A DNA stretch of 64,000 bases from Gammaproteobacteria bacterium (GTDB lineage Bacteria; Pseudomonadota; Gammaproteobacteria; Pseudomonadales; Pseudohongiellaceae), in NCBI GenBank assembly GCA_028825335.1, contig JAPKAI010000002.1, positions 1 through 64,000 on the forward strand. Reading direction: 5' to 3'. Within the stretch, counting starts at the first letter, position 1, and each line of letters starts with the position of its first letter. The translations under genes and the position numbers were made by a program. Positions 56,810 through 64,000 of this stretch are shown in pieces. The notes below the pieces were generated by a model that saw only the letters and a list, made by a program, of their open reading frames with translations, made no database searches and had not been told where the DNA came from.

Positions 56810-58183
56810 CTAAATGGTGCCGAGCAGAGAGTTTGGTAGTGCATCGGTAATTGTGCAGTTAGTAAAATTGCCAATGAGCGAGGCATGGTCGCACTTGAAG
56901 TTTACTACTCTGTTATTTTCGGTCCGGCCTTGTAGGTCACCAGTATGCTTTTTAGAGTGACCGGTAACCAAGATTCGTTGCTCGCTGCCTACCATACCGG
57001 CACTGATCGCACTCGCCTGCTGAACGATCTGGGATTGCAAGGTCGCTAGGCGATGTTTCTTTTCCTGAGCAGGAACTAGGTCGACTAGATCAGCTGCAGG
57101 CGTTCCCGGTCTAGCGCTATAGATAAAACTGAACGAAGTATCGAAGCCTATTTCGATTATTAGCTTCATTGTGTCCTCGAAATCGGCGTTAGTCTCTCCG
57201 GGAAAACCCACGATAAAATCAGACGAGAGGCTGATGTTCGGTCGAATAGCGCGAATCCTCCTGATGATCGACTTATATTCGAGTGCTGTGTGTCCGCGTT
57301 TCATGGCAGCCAAGATTCGATCTGAGCCACTCTGTACGGGGAGGTGTAGATGATCTGCCAGTTCGGGAATCTGTCCGTAGACTTCGATCAGGGAGCTCGA
57401 GAATTCAATCGGGTGGGATGTAGTAAAGCGAATTCGGTCTATGCCTTCTATGCTGGAGATGTACTGAATTAAAGTGGCTAAGTCCACAATGCTGCCCTCG
57501 TGGCTCAAGCCGCGATAGGCATTTGCATTCTGACCGAGGAGATTGATTTCCCGAACGCCTTGCTCTGCTAGATGGACCGCCTCTGCTAGCACATCATCTA
57601 ACGGCCGGCTGACTTCTTCTCCGCGCGTATAGGGAACAACGCAGAAGCTGCAATACTTGCTGCAGCCTTCCATGATCGTTAGAAATGCCTGGCATGAGGT
57701 GGCATCGGGCTGTGGCAGGTGGTCGAATTTCTCGATCTCAGGGAAGCTAACATCCACTACTGGTTTTCCATTACCGCTCGCATCCAGCATCGCGGGTAGC
57801 TTGTGCAGGGTCTGTGGACCAAAGACAACATCGACATAAGGTGCCCGTTTACCGATGGCAGCTCCTTCCTGGCTTGCTACGCAGCCACCGACGGCTATTT
57901 TCAGATGAGGTTTCGCTTCCTTCAGCCTGCGCCATCGACCCAGTTGATGGAAAACCTTCTCTTGTGCCTTTTCGCGGATGGAGCAGGTGTTAAGCAGCAG
58001 TAAATCGGCATCTGCGGGATCATCAACGAGTTCCGCTCCCTGTGTTTCCTTTAAGAGGTCCAGCATACGATTCGAGTCATATTCGTTCATCTGGCAGCCG
58101 TGAGTCTTAATGAAGACCTTCTTGGTCTGAATTGTGGGGCTGTCCGTTATTTCCGGCTGAATTTCACTCTGTTCAGGTTTCAC
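56810..58183 (-). CDS. miaB: tRNA-2-methylthio-N6-dimethylallyladenosine synthase MiaB
   Basis: [63 protein letters not shown]. Confidence 0.96.
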
Positions 58184-58413
58184 AGTATTTCCGTGCAGTG
58201 GGCTATTTTCAAATGGGGGCGAATTATAACAGCAAAAATCAGCAGTACTTAACTACGAATTAACGCATAATGACTTGAAATTTGGGCTTCTAGCCTGATA
58301 TTAGGTCTACTTGCTCAAACATGCCCCTATGCAAACACTGTGGGCGCTTGAAGATGGTGCCTCAGGTTCCGTTGGCCGCCGCAGTATACAGACAGTATAA
58401 GAGATTGAACTAC

Positions 58414-58749
58414 ATGGGAAATTCCTCGGAAATATACAAGATAACCTTCCTTAACAAGGGCAAGGTCTACGAAGTATTCGTAAAACAGGTCTATCAGAGT
58501 GATCTGTACGGATTTGTCGAGATTGAAGACTATGTTTTCGATGAGCGTTCGCAGGTTGTTGTGGACCCATCTGAAGAGAAGCTGAAGGCTGAGTTCAATG
58601 GCGTGAAGAGAAGCTTCATTCCCATTCAGGCAATCATTCGAATCGATGAGGTCGAGAAGAGTGGTGTTAGTAAGATATCCAGCGGCGATAATGTGTCCCC
58701 GTTCCCCGTATCCATCGTGGGCAGTAAGGTAGATCGAAAAGATTCTTGA
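58414..58749 (+). CDS. DUF1820 family protein
   Basis: IYKITFLNKGKVYEVFVKQVYQSDLYGFVEIEDYVFDE; start set at ATG 58414. Confidence 0.85.
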   Translation: MGNSSEIYKITFLNKGKVYEVFVKQVYQSDLYGFVEIEDYVFDERSQVVVDPSEEKLKAEFNGVKRSFIPIQAIIRIDEVEKSGVSKISSGDNVSPFPVSIVGSKVDRKDS

Positions 58750-58809
58750 AACTAACTCGTCGACTTGCGCAGCCCTCTCCCATCTACTCAGACAGTAGTA
58801 TCTGAGTAG

Positions 58810-59799
58810 ATGGAATCCTCTAGCCACCCCTATGCTGAGTTATCTCCAGTTGCCGTCTTGGAAGCTGTTGAGAGCCTTGGCTTTGAGACCGATGCGCGTA
58901 TGTTTCCGCTTAACAGCTATGAGAACCGTGTCTATCAGGTCGGGCTCGTTGGCAAGCCTTCAATAATCGTCAAGTTTTATCGCCCCGAGCGATGGACGAC
59001 ACAGCAGATACTCGAAGAGCACAGTTATACTCAGGAGCTGGTCGATCTAGAAATCCCAGTCGTGCCTCCGATTGACTTCAGCCACGGCGGAACGCTTCAA
59101 GTATTCAATAATTTTCGCTTCTCGGTATTCGAGCAATTTTTAGGACGTCCACCCGAGTTAGATAATTTAGACAATCTGTTAGTTATGGGGCGCTTTGTCG
59201 GTCGCATCCATGCGGTCGGCGCGCTGCATGAATTTAAGCATCGGATAGAACTTACTGCGCAGCGCTTCTCAGTGCAAAGTAGACAGTTTCTTCTAGAGAA
59301 TGATTTTCTTTCCCGCGATATGCGCCCGGCCTACGAAACTCTCTCTCAAGATCTGGTCGATAAGATTCAGGAGCGCTTCGCAGCGCACGGTGAAGTGCAA
59401 AAACTACGCATTCATGGAGACTGTCATCCGGGAAACGTTTTGTGGAAAGACGAGACTCCCAACTTTGTTGATTTCGATGACACCATGACCGGGCCTGCGA
59501 TCCAGGATCTATGGATGATGTTGTCCGGCGATCGTAATCAACGACAGGCGCAATTGTTAGAGCTGGTAGAAGGCTATAACGAGTTTCATAATTTCAGGGC
59601 GTCGGAATTGGAGTTAGTGGAAGCTATGCGCACGATGCGGTTGATGAACTACGCCGCCTGGTTAGCGCGTCGTTGGGAGGACCCCGCATTTCCGAAGAGC
59701 TTTCCCTGGTTTAATACCGAACGCTATTGGGCGGAGCACATAACGGAGCTGCGTGAGCAACTTTTCCTGCTAGATGAGCCAGCCTTGCGCCTCGTCTAA
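58810..59799 (+). CDS. srkA: Serine/threonine protein kinase SrkA/YihE-type
   Basis: NSYENRVYQVGL, IVKFYRPERWTTQQILEEHSYTQEL, LRIHGDCHPGNVLW, VDFDDTMTGPAIQDLWMMLSGD. Confidence 0.93.
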   Translation: MESSSHPYAELSPVAVLEAVESLGFETDARMFPLNSYENRVYQVGLVGKPSIIVKFYRPERWTTQQILEEHSYTQELVDLEIPVVPPIDFSHGGTLQVFNNFRFSVFEQFLGRPPELDNLDNLLVMGRFVGRIHAVGALHEFKHRIELTAQRFSVQSRQFLLENDFLSRDMRPAYETLSQDLVDKIQERFAAHGEVQKLRIHGDCHPGNVLWKDETPNFVDFDDTMTGPAIQDLWMMLSGDRNQRQAQLLELVEGYNEFHNFRASELELVEAMRTMRLMNYAAWLARRWEDPAFPKSFPWFNTERYWAEHITELREQLFLLDEPALRLV

Positions 59800-60707
59800 T
59801 TCTTAGAATTTAGACCAGCACTTCCAATCTTTTCCTCACTATCCATGTAGACGCACGCAAGCCCCGAGTCCTCCAGCCAGGCTTTTGCCTCAGACTCGTC
59901 CTTGAGCATTGCTATCGTTGCTGCCGAGCCAGCGACGCTACATAAATTTGCAGCAATACTTACGGCACGTAAGCCATTAGAAGGCCAGCCCGTCATTGGG
60001 TTTAGAATGTGACTGTAACGTTTCCCTTCATGCATGAAAAAGCGCTCATAATCCCCGCTGCTGGCGAGGCCACCATCATTGAGCTCGATCTTGGCCATGA
60101 CGCCACTTTCAGATACCGGGCTAGAGATACCTACAGCCCAGGGTTTATTGCCAGGCTGCGATCCGATGACACTGAAATCGCCGCCTAAGTTCACCAGGCC
60201 ATGTTCGACGCCTAAGCTGCGCGCCAGGCGAGCGACGGAATCGGCTGCATACTCTTTAACGATGCCTCCGAAGTCTATCTGCATATCTCGTGGTAGGTGA
60301 ATGTGGGAATCTTTGCAGGATAATTTGTTAAGACCAACATGAGCACGCGCTACGTCTATCTGCGCCTGACTCGGAACGAGCGCCTTCTTGAAATCCCAAA
60401 TTTTATTTAGCGCGCCAGCCGTAATATCAAACAAGCCATCGCTCTGTTCAAAGCAGTTGAGGGCATGGTCAAACAGTGATTGAGTTTCGTCATCGATAGC
60501 TAAACCAAGTTTATTTCCCGCAGAGGAATTTATCTCGGTCAGAAAACTATCTTCACGAAAGCGTGAGTATTTTTTCTCCAAGCGCGCAACTTCTTCGGCA
60601 AGTTGATTGACGACATTCTTAACACGGATGCGCGATTCATCGAATAGTTGAATCTCGCAAAAACTTCCCATGGCCTTGAATGAGAAGTGCTTTGGCGTCG
60701 GATTCAT
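59796..60707 (-). CDS. apbE: FAD:protein FMN transferase (ApbE family)
   Basis: FKAMGSFCEIQLFDE; EEVARLEKKYSRFREDSFLTEINSSAG; VNLGGDFSVIG; GLASSGDYERFFMHEGKRYSHILNPMTGWPSNGLRAVSI. Confidence 0.93.
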   Translation of the reverse strand: MNPTPKHFSFKAMGSFCEIQLFDESRIRVKNVVNQLAEEVARLEKKYSRFREDSFLTEINSSAGNKLGLAIDDETQSLFDHALNCFEQSDGLFDITAGALNKIWDFKKALVPSQAQIDVARAHVGLNKLSCKDSHIHLPRDMQIDFGGIVKEYAADSVARLARSLGVEHGLVNLGGDFSVIGSQPGNKPWAVGISSPVSESGVMAKIELNDGGLASSGDYERFFMHEGKRYSHILNPMTGWPSNGLRAVSIAANLCSVAGSAATIAMLKDESEAKAWLEDSGLACVYMDSEEKIGSAGLNSKN

Positions 60708-60770
60708 AGTCGAATTTGAGATAGGTAGATGAGTCAGATAGAAATGTATGACGGATTATGCAGAAATCGC

Positions 60771-61928
60771 CTAAAACCGAAAATCGATGCCCAGTGATAT
60801 GCGGTTGTATTTGACTAGTGCTGTGCTTGGCAGTGAAACATCGTAGGCGGAATACTTGTCATTTGCTAAATAGCGTTCGGCAGTTAATGTGATCTTCCAA
60901 GAATTCATGTCTGCAATTACGGAAAAGCCTCCGCTAACAGCGCCGAAGGCTGAGAGGCGGTAGTCGCTAGATTGATACTCGCTAATGGGGTTAAGGAAGT
61001 CATCGACGTTGGTAAAAAATTCTGCCGCAGATTGATTGTAGTAACGCAGCGTAGGAACTATCTGGAACGTGCGCCCGAGATTTTGGTGCCAAGATAAGTC
61101 GCTCGTGTGAGAGCTGATACCAAAATCGTCGTGGTAGTAACGGTAGTTAACATGCAGCGCGGCATTCGCGGAAACGAAGAATCTTCTGTAGGAATTGCTC
61201 CATGCTATCTGCGTTTTGTCATCCGGTCTGAAGTCTCTAAGCTTGTACGGGTCGCTTAGAAACCCCGATTGTTCTGTAAAGCTTAACGCTGATTGAAAGC
61301 TGGATACTTGATTAATAATTTGACTGACGGAAACGAAAAGTGAAGAGCTCTGCTTGTCATCCTCTTCGACACGATTGAAGAGCGCGGCATCGGTTGGAAA
61401 CACCTTATCCGATGAATAGCTGAGGCCTGCCGAGACTGTGGTGAGGTCGTTGTTGTAGTGCTTTTCTGTGTTGAAGCCGAAATAAATGGCGCGATAGTCA
61501 TCTTCTTCGGAGTAGCCAATGTTTCCGCCAAAGCTACCGTTCTCTAAATAGTAGCGACTCCCGATGCTGAGCTCCGTGCGTCGGTCGCTGATGCCGCTCG
61601 CGCCGCTTAAATTTACTATGGGCTCGCCATCTAGAGAGCGACTCGTGTACCAGGGTGATGCACCGCTGAGCGATTCGTAGTTCGCGTCGACATGCAAAGA
61701 CATATTACGACCGAGAGGAGAGACCAATTGAAACTGATGAACGTCGATGTCGTAGCGTTCTAGGTCTCCGAACGGCGTCTCTGAGCGAGAGAGGTCGTCC
61801 TCCTGATAGTTCGATAATTTATAAGAGATCGTGCTCTGCGTAGGCGGTGCATCTGCTAGAGCTATGCCAGGCAGTGCTAGAGCGGTAGTAGAAAGAGCTA
61901 TAATGTTGCGAGAGGCGCTGTCCTTCAT
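60771..61928 (-). CDS. DUF3570 family outer-membrane beta-barrel-type protein
   Basis: signal peptide ending ALADA; NYESLSGASPWYTSR and VNLSGASGISDRRTE; C-terminal ...RISLGIDFRF typical of outer-membrane barrels. Confidence 0.82.
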   Translation of the reverse strand: MKDSASRNIIALSTTALALPGIALADAPPTQSTISYKLSNYQEDDLSRSETPFGDLERYDIDVHQFQLVSPLGRNMSLHVDANYESLSGASPWYTSRSLDGEPIVNLSGASGISDRRTELSIGSRYYLENGSFGGNIGYSEEDDYRAIYFGFNTEKHYNNDLTTVSAGLSYSSDKVFPTDAALFNRVEEDDKQSSSLFVSVSQIINQVSSFQSALSFTEQSGFLSDPYKLRDFRPDDKTQIAWSNSYRRFFVSANAALHVNYRYYHDDFGISSHTSDLSWHQNLGRTFQIVPTLRYYNQSAAEFFTNVDDFLNPISEYQSSDYRLSAFGAVSGGFSVIADMNSWKITLTAERYLANDKYSAYDVSLPSTALVKYNRISLGIDFRF

Positions 61929-61942
61929 ATTATGTCCGGCTG

Positions 61943-62161
61943 CTAGTTACAGCCGCAGCCGCCACCTGCCGCGTTGTTGCCTCCGGAGGAGGCTTCTTTG
62001 CTAAAGAAGATGTGATCATTGAGGGAGCTTTCCAATGCGTCGGGAGCCCATGCCATTTCCTCTCTAGCGAGATAGCCGCGCTCCCAAGCCCGCACGTCGG
62101 CGCAAGAGATCAGCATAAGGCTGCAAATCGACATAAGTAGGGTGGTTCGGAACTGTCGCAT
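61943..62161 (-). CDS. DUF4266 family small lipoprotein with Cys-containing C-terminal tail
   Basis: lipobox LMLISC; VRAWERGYLAREEMAWAPDALESSLNDHIFFSKEASSGG...GGGCGCN. Confidence 0.85.
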   Translation of the reverse strand: MRQFRTTLLMSICSLMLISCADVRAWERGYLAREEMAWAPDALESSLNDHIFFSKEASSGGNNAAGGGCGCN

Positions 62162-62208
62162 TGGAGCTGCCTCCTCATTAAGCCTTCAGACAACTAGAGC
62201 TAGCTAGT

Positions 62209-62718
62209 CTAGTTGTCGCCTAGAGAATCTTGTATAGCTTCTTCAATCATTTCTATGTCGCCGGATCTAAAACCCATGTGCACAAGCGTAACCGTGCCAT
62301 CAGGATCAATCAGGTAAGACGTTGGCATTCCGATAACTTCGAACAGCTCGGCGGCTTCGCCATCGGGGTCTGCTGGTATCAAGAAATCCAGAGGCGTATC
62401 GAGTAAGAAGTCCAAGCCGTCTTCGATTGGATTGTCTACGTTGATAGCGACAATCTCCAAGCCTTGATCTTTGTATTTGTGATAGATGTCATTATAAAGG
62501 GGTAGCGAGCTAAGGCAGGGCGCGCACCAGGAGGCCCAGAAGTCTACATAGACGGTCTTCCCCTCGAGGCTCGCTGTGCTTATGGCTGGATGGTCGGCAT
62601 AGATAGAGGGTAGGTCGAAAATGGGTGCTTGATCGCCTTCCTCCACGCCCCAGGCAGATGTGCTAACTGCAGTAAGCGTCAACAGGGCTAGCATTTGTGA
62701 TTTCTGCTTGATGTTCAT
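62209..62718 (-). CDS. TlpA/ResA-like periplasmic thioredoxin
   Basis: signal peptide (MNIKQKSQMLALLTLTAVSTSAWG, ATG 62718); YVDFWASWCAPCLSSLPLYNDIY (WCAPC). Confidence 0.9.
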   Translation of the reverse strand: MNIKQKSQMLALLTLTAVSTSAWGVEEGDQAPIFDLPSIYADHPAISTASLEGKTVYVDFWASWCAPCLSSLPLYNDIYHKYKDQGLEIVAINVDNPIEDGLDFLLDTPLDFLIPADPDGEAAELFEVIGMPTSYLIDPDGTVTLVHMGFRSGDIEMIEEAIQDSLGDN

Positions 62719-62936
62719 GTCGTTTTCTTCCGATATCCTTTGAGCTAGTGAGTTGTATGGGTCTTTAGTTCTTGGGCCCAAGGGTCTTGGGTAGGTAATT
62801 CTGCCAGAATCTCATTGTTTGCGATAGCTACGGCACAGATAAACTCATATACATCACACTTTATTACAGCCGAAGTGGTTTAGCTCTATAGTCTATAACG
62901 TGTTAGCGCTTAATCGTATACGGGAATAGCGAGCAG

Positions 62937-64000
62937 CTAGATCAGTTGTAGGTGTGGTTGCGCCAGATCACGCAGTAGATTTTGCCAGCGTTGTTTCTGC
63001 TCCTTCAGCCGATATTGAACTTCCTTATAGCTATGCTTCAGCTGAAGTTGATCAAGAGAATTGAGGCTTTGCTGCAATTGTTTGCCTTTAGCCTCGTACC
63101 AGGCCTGTCTGTGTTCGCTCCAAAGTTCCAGAGTCTGTAGGAGTTGCTCGTATTCAGTTTCCAGCCGAAGCCGCCAGTTCTCCGGAATATCGAAACGCTC
63201 ACATTTCTCAGTCGCTTTCAGGTATTGAAGCTCGAGGCGGGCTTTCTCGATCTGTGCAGGATTGCAACGTTTAAGATCGCGAGTTAAACCGGCGAAAGAT
63301 AGAAGACTTATCATCCACTTCGTTGGGTCGAAGTGCCACCAGCGAATACCGTTTCTATAGTCCCACTGAAAAGTGTGATGATAATTATGATAGCCCTCAC
63401 CATAGGTAATAAATGCCAAGATTGGATTGTCTTTAGCTGAGCTATTCTCGCTGTAGGGTTGTTGACCCCACATATGTGCTATGGAGTTTATTAGATAAGT
63501 AATATGCTGGCTCAAGACTAAACGAAGCAGGCCACCTAGTAATAAGCCTGCGATAATATCTCCGTGAATAAATCCTAGAAATGCAGGTAGGCCAATATTC
63601 ATTACCAAGAGAAGGGTTAAGTAGTATTTCTTTTGCCAAACTATAACGGGGTCTTTCATTAAATCTTTAACATTCGAATAGTCCTCTGCGCCACTTTTGT
63701 AGTCACGCAGGATCCATCCGATATGAGAAAACCAAAATCCACGATCGGCTGAATAAGGATCCTTATCGTTGTTGTCTACGAATTGATGATGGCGGCGATG
63801 CCCCGATGCCCAAGTTAAGATGTCGTTCTGCAGTGCGCAGGCCCCTCCGAGGGCAAATATGATCCGAATCAAAGGGTGTGCCTTATAGGCCTTATGTGAC
63901 CACAGGCGGTGATACCCGGCAGTTATGGACATGCCACAAAAACCCATCAGGAGTACGAATACCATCCACTCATAGAGATCGTAGCCGTAAAAATAGCCGT
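62937..64000 (-). CDS. Acyl-CoA/fatty-acid desaturase, 5' end beyond window
   Basis: GYHRLWSHKAYKAH, GHRRHHQFVDNNDKDPYS, YGEGYHNYHHTFQWDYRNG His boxes; frame stays open to the window edge upstream of M 63965 (...GYFYGYDLYEWMVFV). Confidence 0.92.
   Translation of the reverse strand, partial: GYFYGYDLYEWMVFVLLMGFCGMSITAGYHRLWSHKAYKAHPLIRIIFALGGACALQNDILTWASGHRRHHQFVDNNDKDPYSADRGFWFSHIGWILRDYKSGAEDYSNVKDLMKDPVIVWQKKYYLTLLLVMNIGLPAFLGFIHGDIIAGLLLGGLLRLVLSQHITYLINSIAHMWGQQPYSENSSAKDNPILAFITYGEGYHNYHHTFQWDYRNGIRWWHFDPTKWMISLLSFAGLTRDLKRCNPAQIEKARLELQYLKATEKCERFDIPENWRLRLETEYEQLLQTLELWSEHRQAWYEAKGKQLQQSLNSLDQLQLKHSYKEVQYRLKEQKQRWQNLLRDLAQPHLQLI

Follow-up and report, generated by a model that had tools for sequence, protein, structure and literature searches.

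Flavinylation clusters and the operon of the window

The described systems closest to the genes treated here are the 'DsbD system' clusters of Meheust et al. (2021, eLife; PMC8238504), passages of which report hundreds of clusters that encode ApbE, DUF3570, a thioredoxin-like protein, and DUF4266. According to the same passages, two [S/T]GA[S/T] motifs of the Chlorobium luteolum DUF3570 protein were flavinylated by the cognate ApbE, and it took the replacement of both serines to abolish the modification. Since the constructs of that assay, performed in E. coli, were signal-peptide-truncated and most of the DUF3570 protein was in the pellet, the result supports acceptance of a not-yet-assembled barrel as an ApbE substrate. 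For most of the ApbEs that have been studied, the site of action is the periplasm (PMC12052999). We analyzed a four-gene operon of these families in a 64,000-nucleotide stretch of gammaproteobacterial DNA (the window), which is located on contig C127 of a 2.97-Mb assembly that is 93% complete. The nearest named loci belong to uncultured marine Gammaproteobacteria, including Pseudohongiella and SAR86-labelled bins, with a DUF3570 identity of up to 92%.

Four minus-strand open reading frames (ORFs) at 59796–62781 form one co-directional run with intergenic gaps of 47, 14, and 63 nt, which reproduces the layout given in an earlier reading of this DNA (the original prediction). They encode a TlpA-like thioredoxin (Pfam AhpC-TSA/Redoxin/Thioredoxin_8, 8e-20), a DUF4266 lipoprotein (PF14086, 1.8e-21), a DUF3570 protein (PF12094, 1.1e-61), and ApbE (PF02424, 1.4e-73). 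The operon is an ordinary member of the described flavinylation cluster type, and its gene set was already reported in 2021 (PMC8238504). As far as passages of that paper describe the clusters, the likeness comprises the same four families, the two [S/T]GA[S/T] motifs in DUF3570, and the CXC tail of DUF4266, and the operon matches the 316 clusters without an adjacent DsbD. It differs from them in that its thioredoxin is matched best by AhpC-TSA/Redoxin, whereas PF13899 is cited in the paper, and in that the DsbD of the genome is encoded elsewhere. When the literature was searched for DUF3570 and DUF4266 by name and by Pfam number, the 2021 paper was the only match.

The operon ApbE and its relatives

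The window ApbE, annotated as a flavin adenine dinucleotide (FAD):protein flavin mononucleotide (FMN) transferase, possesses no signal peptide. A start-codon error was rejected as the cause of the missing leader, because the entire 319-residue stop-to-stop frame contains no hydrophobic segment. The sequence hence speaks against an extracytoplasmic enzyme, a point in which the original prediction was wrong or incomplete. Leaders were scored by the highest mean hydropathy that any stretch of 11 residues reached downstream of a possible start codon, which is a simple criterion and not a SignalP prediction. This was applied to a survey of 130 DUF3570 sequences, of which 31 were from loci recognized by sequence as near relatives of the window and the rest were collected within the order and class by matches to the profile of either DUF family. 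The ApbEs near DUF3570 were leaderless in 74 cases and exported in 7; 46 leaderless cases are left without the window and its close relatives (counted from the survey table). The leaderless state extends over dozens of genera and to the non-gammaproteobacterial loci that were sampled. The searched main-text passages of PMC8238504 make no mention of an ApbE that lacks both the leader and the Asp; the supplementary tables of the paper give per-cluster signal-peptide predictions, in which the leaderless state may be visible. A literature search, in which most matches were judged by title and abstract, found no report on an ApbE that is leaderless or cytoplasmic while its substrate is exported.

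The leaderless enzymes are also distinguished by their active-site residues. The catalytic Ser and His (Ser217 and His233 in the window) are invariant among the 78 leaderless sequences that were compared. The column of the metal-binding catalytic Asp is occupied by Gly in 78/78 of them (Gly260) versus Asp in 36/36 exported sequences, and the Gly following the conserved Lys (K-G motif) is replaced with Glu in 77/78 (Glu152) versus Gly in 36/36. The same Gly/Glu exchange was observed in 15/15 leaderless ApbEs of a later-drawn set. In Listeria FmnB, the triad consists of Asp301-Ser257-His273, and the metals are held by Asp301, Ser304, and Ala187 (PMC8906456); the triad of V. cholerae ApbE is Asp285-Ser241-His257 (PMC12052999). 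In the alignment, Glu152 is found four residues C-terminal to the position of Ala187 of FmnB, the carbonyl of which binds metal. Glu152 is a candidate to stand in for the missing metal-binding Asp. A model of the window ApbE superposed on ApbE/FmnB structures (best Foldseek matches, query TM (template modelling) about 0.70–0.75), with low confidence around the active-site loops. The protein is classed as a variant ApbE with a putative transferase activity.

Compared with the periplasmic ApbE/Ftp of Nqr/Rnf (Vibrio cholerae, E. coli, Treponema, and Pseudomonas stutzeri) and Listeria FmnB, the window ApbE shares the family, fold, and catalytic Ser/His, but it lacks a leader and carries Gly in place of the metal-binding Asp, and Glu in place of Gly in the K-G-Y motif. 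The fumarate reductase ApbE of Klebsiella pneumoniae, as cited in passages of PMC12052999, is cytoplasmic and also works without a signal peptide; its substrate remains cytoplasmic, whereas that of the window ApbE would be an exported barrel. Cys17 and Cys256 (window numbering) are conserved in 76/78 and 72/78 leaderless ApbEs but were not seen to be conserved in exported ones; they may have a redox or structural function. Three leaderless ApbE-like proteins not located beside DUF3570 (L196, L198, and L199) have lost the catalytic His, and are degenerate paralogues outside this subfamily.

The presence of the leaderless ApbE follows the type of DUF3570. Class A was defined by [S/T]GA[S/T] at the first site, while class B mostly has [S/T]SAS-I-D-V; the second site lies about 20 residues on in subclass A1, as in the window, and is degenerate in A2. 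Class B formed one fully supported branch of the DUF3570 tree (32 rows), and A2 formed another (34 rows). For class A, the ApbE was leaderless at 73 loci, missing within about 2.6 kb at 22, and exported at none, and 2 loci had no room, which gives a leaderless ApbE at 73/95 loci with enough flanking sequence. For class B, 25 loci had no nearby ApbE, 7 had an exported one, and 1 had a leaderless one (L069, which has SGAS and was misfiled by loop length), so that all 7 exported DUF3570-linked ApbEs pair with the SSAS class. The association between class and leader gave a Fisher p of 1.4e-14, for which the loci were treated as independent although they are non-independent, and it rests on a few deep branches. 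The class rule was set before the phylum loci were read. In the later set, consisting of the phylum draw and extra loci, some of them in families outside the window's class, a leaderless ApbE was nearby in 15/15 class-A loci with room versus 0/7 class-B or motif-less loci. The original prediction had named DUF3570 and DUF4266 occurring mostly without apbE as an observation that would speak against it, and this was found only for the sister class B.

Twenty-nine further ApbEs, namely the second ApbE of the window genome and 28 loci from 30 DUF3570-bearing genomes (L177 and L193 included), were examined as a control together with L195. A strong hydrophobic leader was detected in all but L195 (28/29 in one tally). 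The second ApbE of the window genome is exported, possesses a membrane anchor, and is encoded on contig C128. L195 is leaderless and contains the same Gly as the window ApbE, and the class-A DUF3570 of its genome has no adjacent ApbE. Four genomes with a class-A DUF3570 but no adjacent ApbE were checked, and in each of them a leaderless ApbE belonging to this subfamily is encoded elsewhere.

The class-B system may be a sister system without flavins, or an exported ApbE encoded elsewhere may serve it. A class-B DUF3570 (SSASIDV) without the canonical motif and without a leaderless ApbE is not mentioned in the searched main-text passages of PMC8238504. The class-B loci L108, L110–L112, L115–L118, L223, L224, L228, and L234 (mostly SSASIDV) keep the thioredoxin and DUF4266, and usually have no nearby ApbE.

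The predicted DUF3570 barrel and its putative thiol partners

The window DUF3570 has a signal peptide, no Cys, and a C-terminus of GIDFRF. It contains exactly two [S/T]GA[S/T] motifs, both SGAS, which end at Ser91 and Ser111 (Table 1); at least two such motifs arose in 0.1% of composition shuffles. G89, A90, S108, G109, and S111 were invariant across 26 relatives (63–92% identity), and the second motif is SGPS in four close relatives. DUF4266 and TlpA were rejected as ApbE substrates, because neither has [S/T]GA[S/T], and DUF3570 is the predicted substrate in the operon. The original prediction had looked for a target among the operon partners and had stated that no classical FMN-binding-domain, Rnf, or Nqr substrate gene was present in the window. 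The classical FMN-binding domain PF04205 was indeed not matched by the four operon proteins, but the substrate gene is present as DUF3570 itself, for the Chlorobium homologue of which flavinylation was demonstrated (PMC8238504). The two PF04205 matches of the genome are located on C180 and C11; no [S/T]GA[S/T] was contained in the frames read for these two proteins (L074 and L075), one of which is NosR-like by its ferredoxin-type tail.

An AlphaFold2 model of DUF3570 formed a 16-strand barrel with a mean predicted local distance difference test (pLDDT) of 76.9 and a predicted template modelling score (pTM) of 0.74. The top PDB matches of this model in Foldseek were outer-membrane barrels (best query TM-score listed, 0.57 for BcsC 6tzk); no sequence relatives of DUF3570 were found in the PDB, and a viral fold search gave generic barrels only. 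The signal peptide, even strand number (16), and aromatic C-terminus agree with those of an outer-membrane barrel, as a prediction. Both SGAS sites are located at the ends of loop 90–112 between strands 3 and 4. Because both termini are taken as periplasmic following canonical barrel rules, this loop is predicted to be extracellular; the modelled turns 72–75, 129–130, 159–162, 207–208, 252–255, 285–287, and 341–343, of 2–4 residues each, were assigned to the periplasmic side. DUF3570 frames of 847–973 residues, approximately twice the usual length, were also observed with SGAT/SGAS motifs kept (L025, L026, L027/L060, L151, and L164).

The thioredoxin was correctly described as secreted in the original prediction, but its start was placed at TTG 62781. 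The frame stays open up to that codon; ATG 62718 (MNIKQKSQ..., 169 residues) is more likely the start, and is immediately followed by the signal peptide. Cys65 and Cys68 of the WCAPC motif are the only cysteines of this TlpA-like protein, to which the matches of ResA-type profiles remained below the curated cut-off. A homologous thioredoxin adjoins the DUF3570 locus in most relatives and in 109/130 sampled loci, and DUF4266 does so in 127/130, a share inflated by the many loci found through DUF4266. The DUF4266 gene has a Shine-Dalgarno-like aggagg a short way 5' of it. Its product has a lipobox (LISC) with the lipid-bearing Cys20, and a C-terminal tail with Cys69 and Cys71, all kept in relatives; the mature protein has no other cysteines. 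By the usual +2 rule of lipoproteins, Ala after the lipid Cys directs to the outer membrane, and the protein is predicted to be located there since Ala occupies this position. The genome encodes one DsbD-type protein (its only PF02683 match, contig C114) with a C-terminal thioredoxin domain, while none was present among the ORFs listed at 57000–64000. In this protein (L073), a repeated N-terminal domain also precedes the membrane part.

Table 1. Coordinates of the operon genes and motifs in the window.
Feature	Position	Strand	Basis
TlpA/ResA-like periplasmic thioredoxin, 169 residues	62209..62718	-	Pfam AhpC-TSA/Redoxin; signal peptide, WCAPC
DUF4266 lipoprotein	61943..62161	-	PF14086; lipobox LISC, GGGCGCN tail
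DUF3570, predicted 16-strand outer-membrane beta-barrel, predicted ApbE substrate	60771..61928	-	PF12094, AlphaFold2, Foldseek
Flavinylation motif 1, SGAS, residues 88–91 (Ser91, predicted FMN site)	61656..61667	-	Translation, 26-sequence alignment
Flavinylation motif 2, SGAS, residues 108–111 (Ser111, predicted FMN site)	61596..61607	-	Translation, 26-sequence alignment
ApbE FAD:protein FMN transferase, leaderless subfamily	59796..60707	-	PF02424; PDB sequence and fold relatives; residue comparison

A promoter and terminator scan gave chance level only. The DUF4266 profile had no match in plasmids, and the two plasmid ApbEs that were inspected lie in other contexts: one, from Spirosoma, shares its region with PepSY and DUF2271 genes, and the other, from Ruegeria, adjoins nqrM.

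Proposed mechanism and its alternatives

We favor, with appreciable doubt, an explanation in which this member of the flavinylation clusters produces an ApbE-modified DUF3570 barrel that is flavinylated before export and fed by a thiol-to-flavin relay. ApbE would attach FMN to Ser91 and Ser111 of the cysteine-free barrel protein. Since ApbE is leaderless and both sites are placed on a loop predicted to be extracellular, attachment would take place before barrel assembly and most likely before export. The substrate would be the still unfolded precursor in the FAD-rich cytoplasm, and Sec export and assembly would follow. Rigid groups of up to about 2.4 nm are reported to pass through SecYEG when its channel is open (PMC6028853). 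Reducing equivalents would then move from the DsbD-type protein of the genome to the CXXC of the TlpA-like protein, to the CXC tail of DUF4266, and to the flavins of DUF3570, which would pass them to an acceptor at the outer membrane or beyond it, with ferric iron as the best guess. This relay would extend the proposal of the 2021 paper, and the cysteine pattern (CXXC only in TlpA, lipid Cys and CXC in DUF4266, and none in DUF3570) fits it. We infer the timing of flavinylation, the role of Glu152 in place of Asp, the direction and order of electron flow, and the acceptor. The original prediction of a device that combines flavinylation with thiol redox chemistry and extends to the outer membrane was right in outline, as was its placing of the ApbE target among the operon partners, and its view of the DUF4266 Cys tail as a TlpA client is plausible.

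Several points weigh against this explanation. The Asp replaced in the window ApbE is required for the activity of Listeria FmnB (PMC8906456), and the enzyme could therefore be weak or altered. Covalent flavin was demonstrated for the Chlorobium luteolum DUF3570 only, from which that of the window protein is predicted by analogy. Sec export of a doubly flavinylated precursor is a supposed step, and the electron donor and acceptor are assumed, with no DsbD gene adjoining the operon. Loop 90–112 was modelled with modest confidence (block means of 58–76, and below 50 for residues 109–111).

The same system might instead be flavinylated in the periplasm before barrel assembly, either by the exported ApbE of the genome or by a non-classically exported operon ApbE. 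The membrane-anchored second ApbE, the usual site of action of the family (PMC12052999), and the exported ApbEs used by class-B DUF3570s that have one nearby are in line with this. A secreted enzyme should, however, keep its leader, while the leaderless state extends across dozens of genera and into non-gammaproteobacterial loci, and all four checked class-A genomes without an adjacent ApbE still have a leaderless copy elsewhere, so that we consider a periplasmic modification unlikely. It is less probable still that the operon ApbE is no longer a transferase following the Asp-to-Gly exchange, and serves as an FAD binder or a chaperone of the DUF3570 precursor for a barrel that works without covalent flavin. 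This would explain Gly in all 78 leaderless sequences, and alanine mutants of the FmnB metal ligands had greatly reduced or abolished activity (PMC8906456); but the catalytic Ser and His are retained in the same 78, Glu arises four residues after the metal-binding carbonyl position, and the ApbE accompanies DUF3570s that retain [S/T]GA[S/T] but does not occur next to those with SSAS, a pattern that suggests a modifying enzyme. That the four genes are unrelated envelope proteins, neighbours by history only, is very hard to credit: the thioredoxin or ApbE is absent from some loci, but the gene order is conserved across order, class, and phylum, DUF4266 and the thioredoxin recur at the frequencies given above, ApbE occurs according to class A, and passages of PMC8238504 describe the gene set independently in hundreds of genomes.

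Beyond flavinylation before export with a thiol-to-flavin relay, we suggest, tentatively and with more doubt than confidence, that DUF3570-linked ApbEs form a cytoplasmic subfamily of their own, in which the metal site has been rebuilt (Asp to Gly, Gly to Glu) and which flavinylates the precursor of a barrel before its Sec export, and that the two extracellular-loop flavins provide a haem-free electron exit through the outer membrane. MtrB-type porin-cytochrome conduits, to which this is an analogy, carry electrons through a barrel to the cell surface; the proposed system differs from them in being haem-free, with flavins on a 16-strand barrel, and no sequence relation is claimed. The leaderless ApbE with an exported substrate, the active-site residue exchange that tracks this pairing, and the flavin sites on a predicted surface loop are three testable handles that the survey provides. 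If the proposal is true, a covalent cofactor would be installed on an outer-membrane protein before its export, and common marine Gammaproteobacteria would possess a flavin alternative to multihaem cytochromes for electron transfer across the outer membrane.

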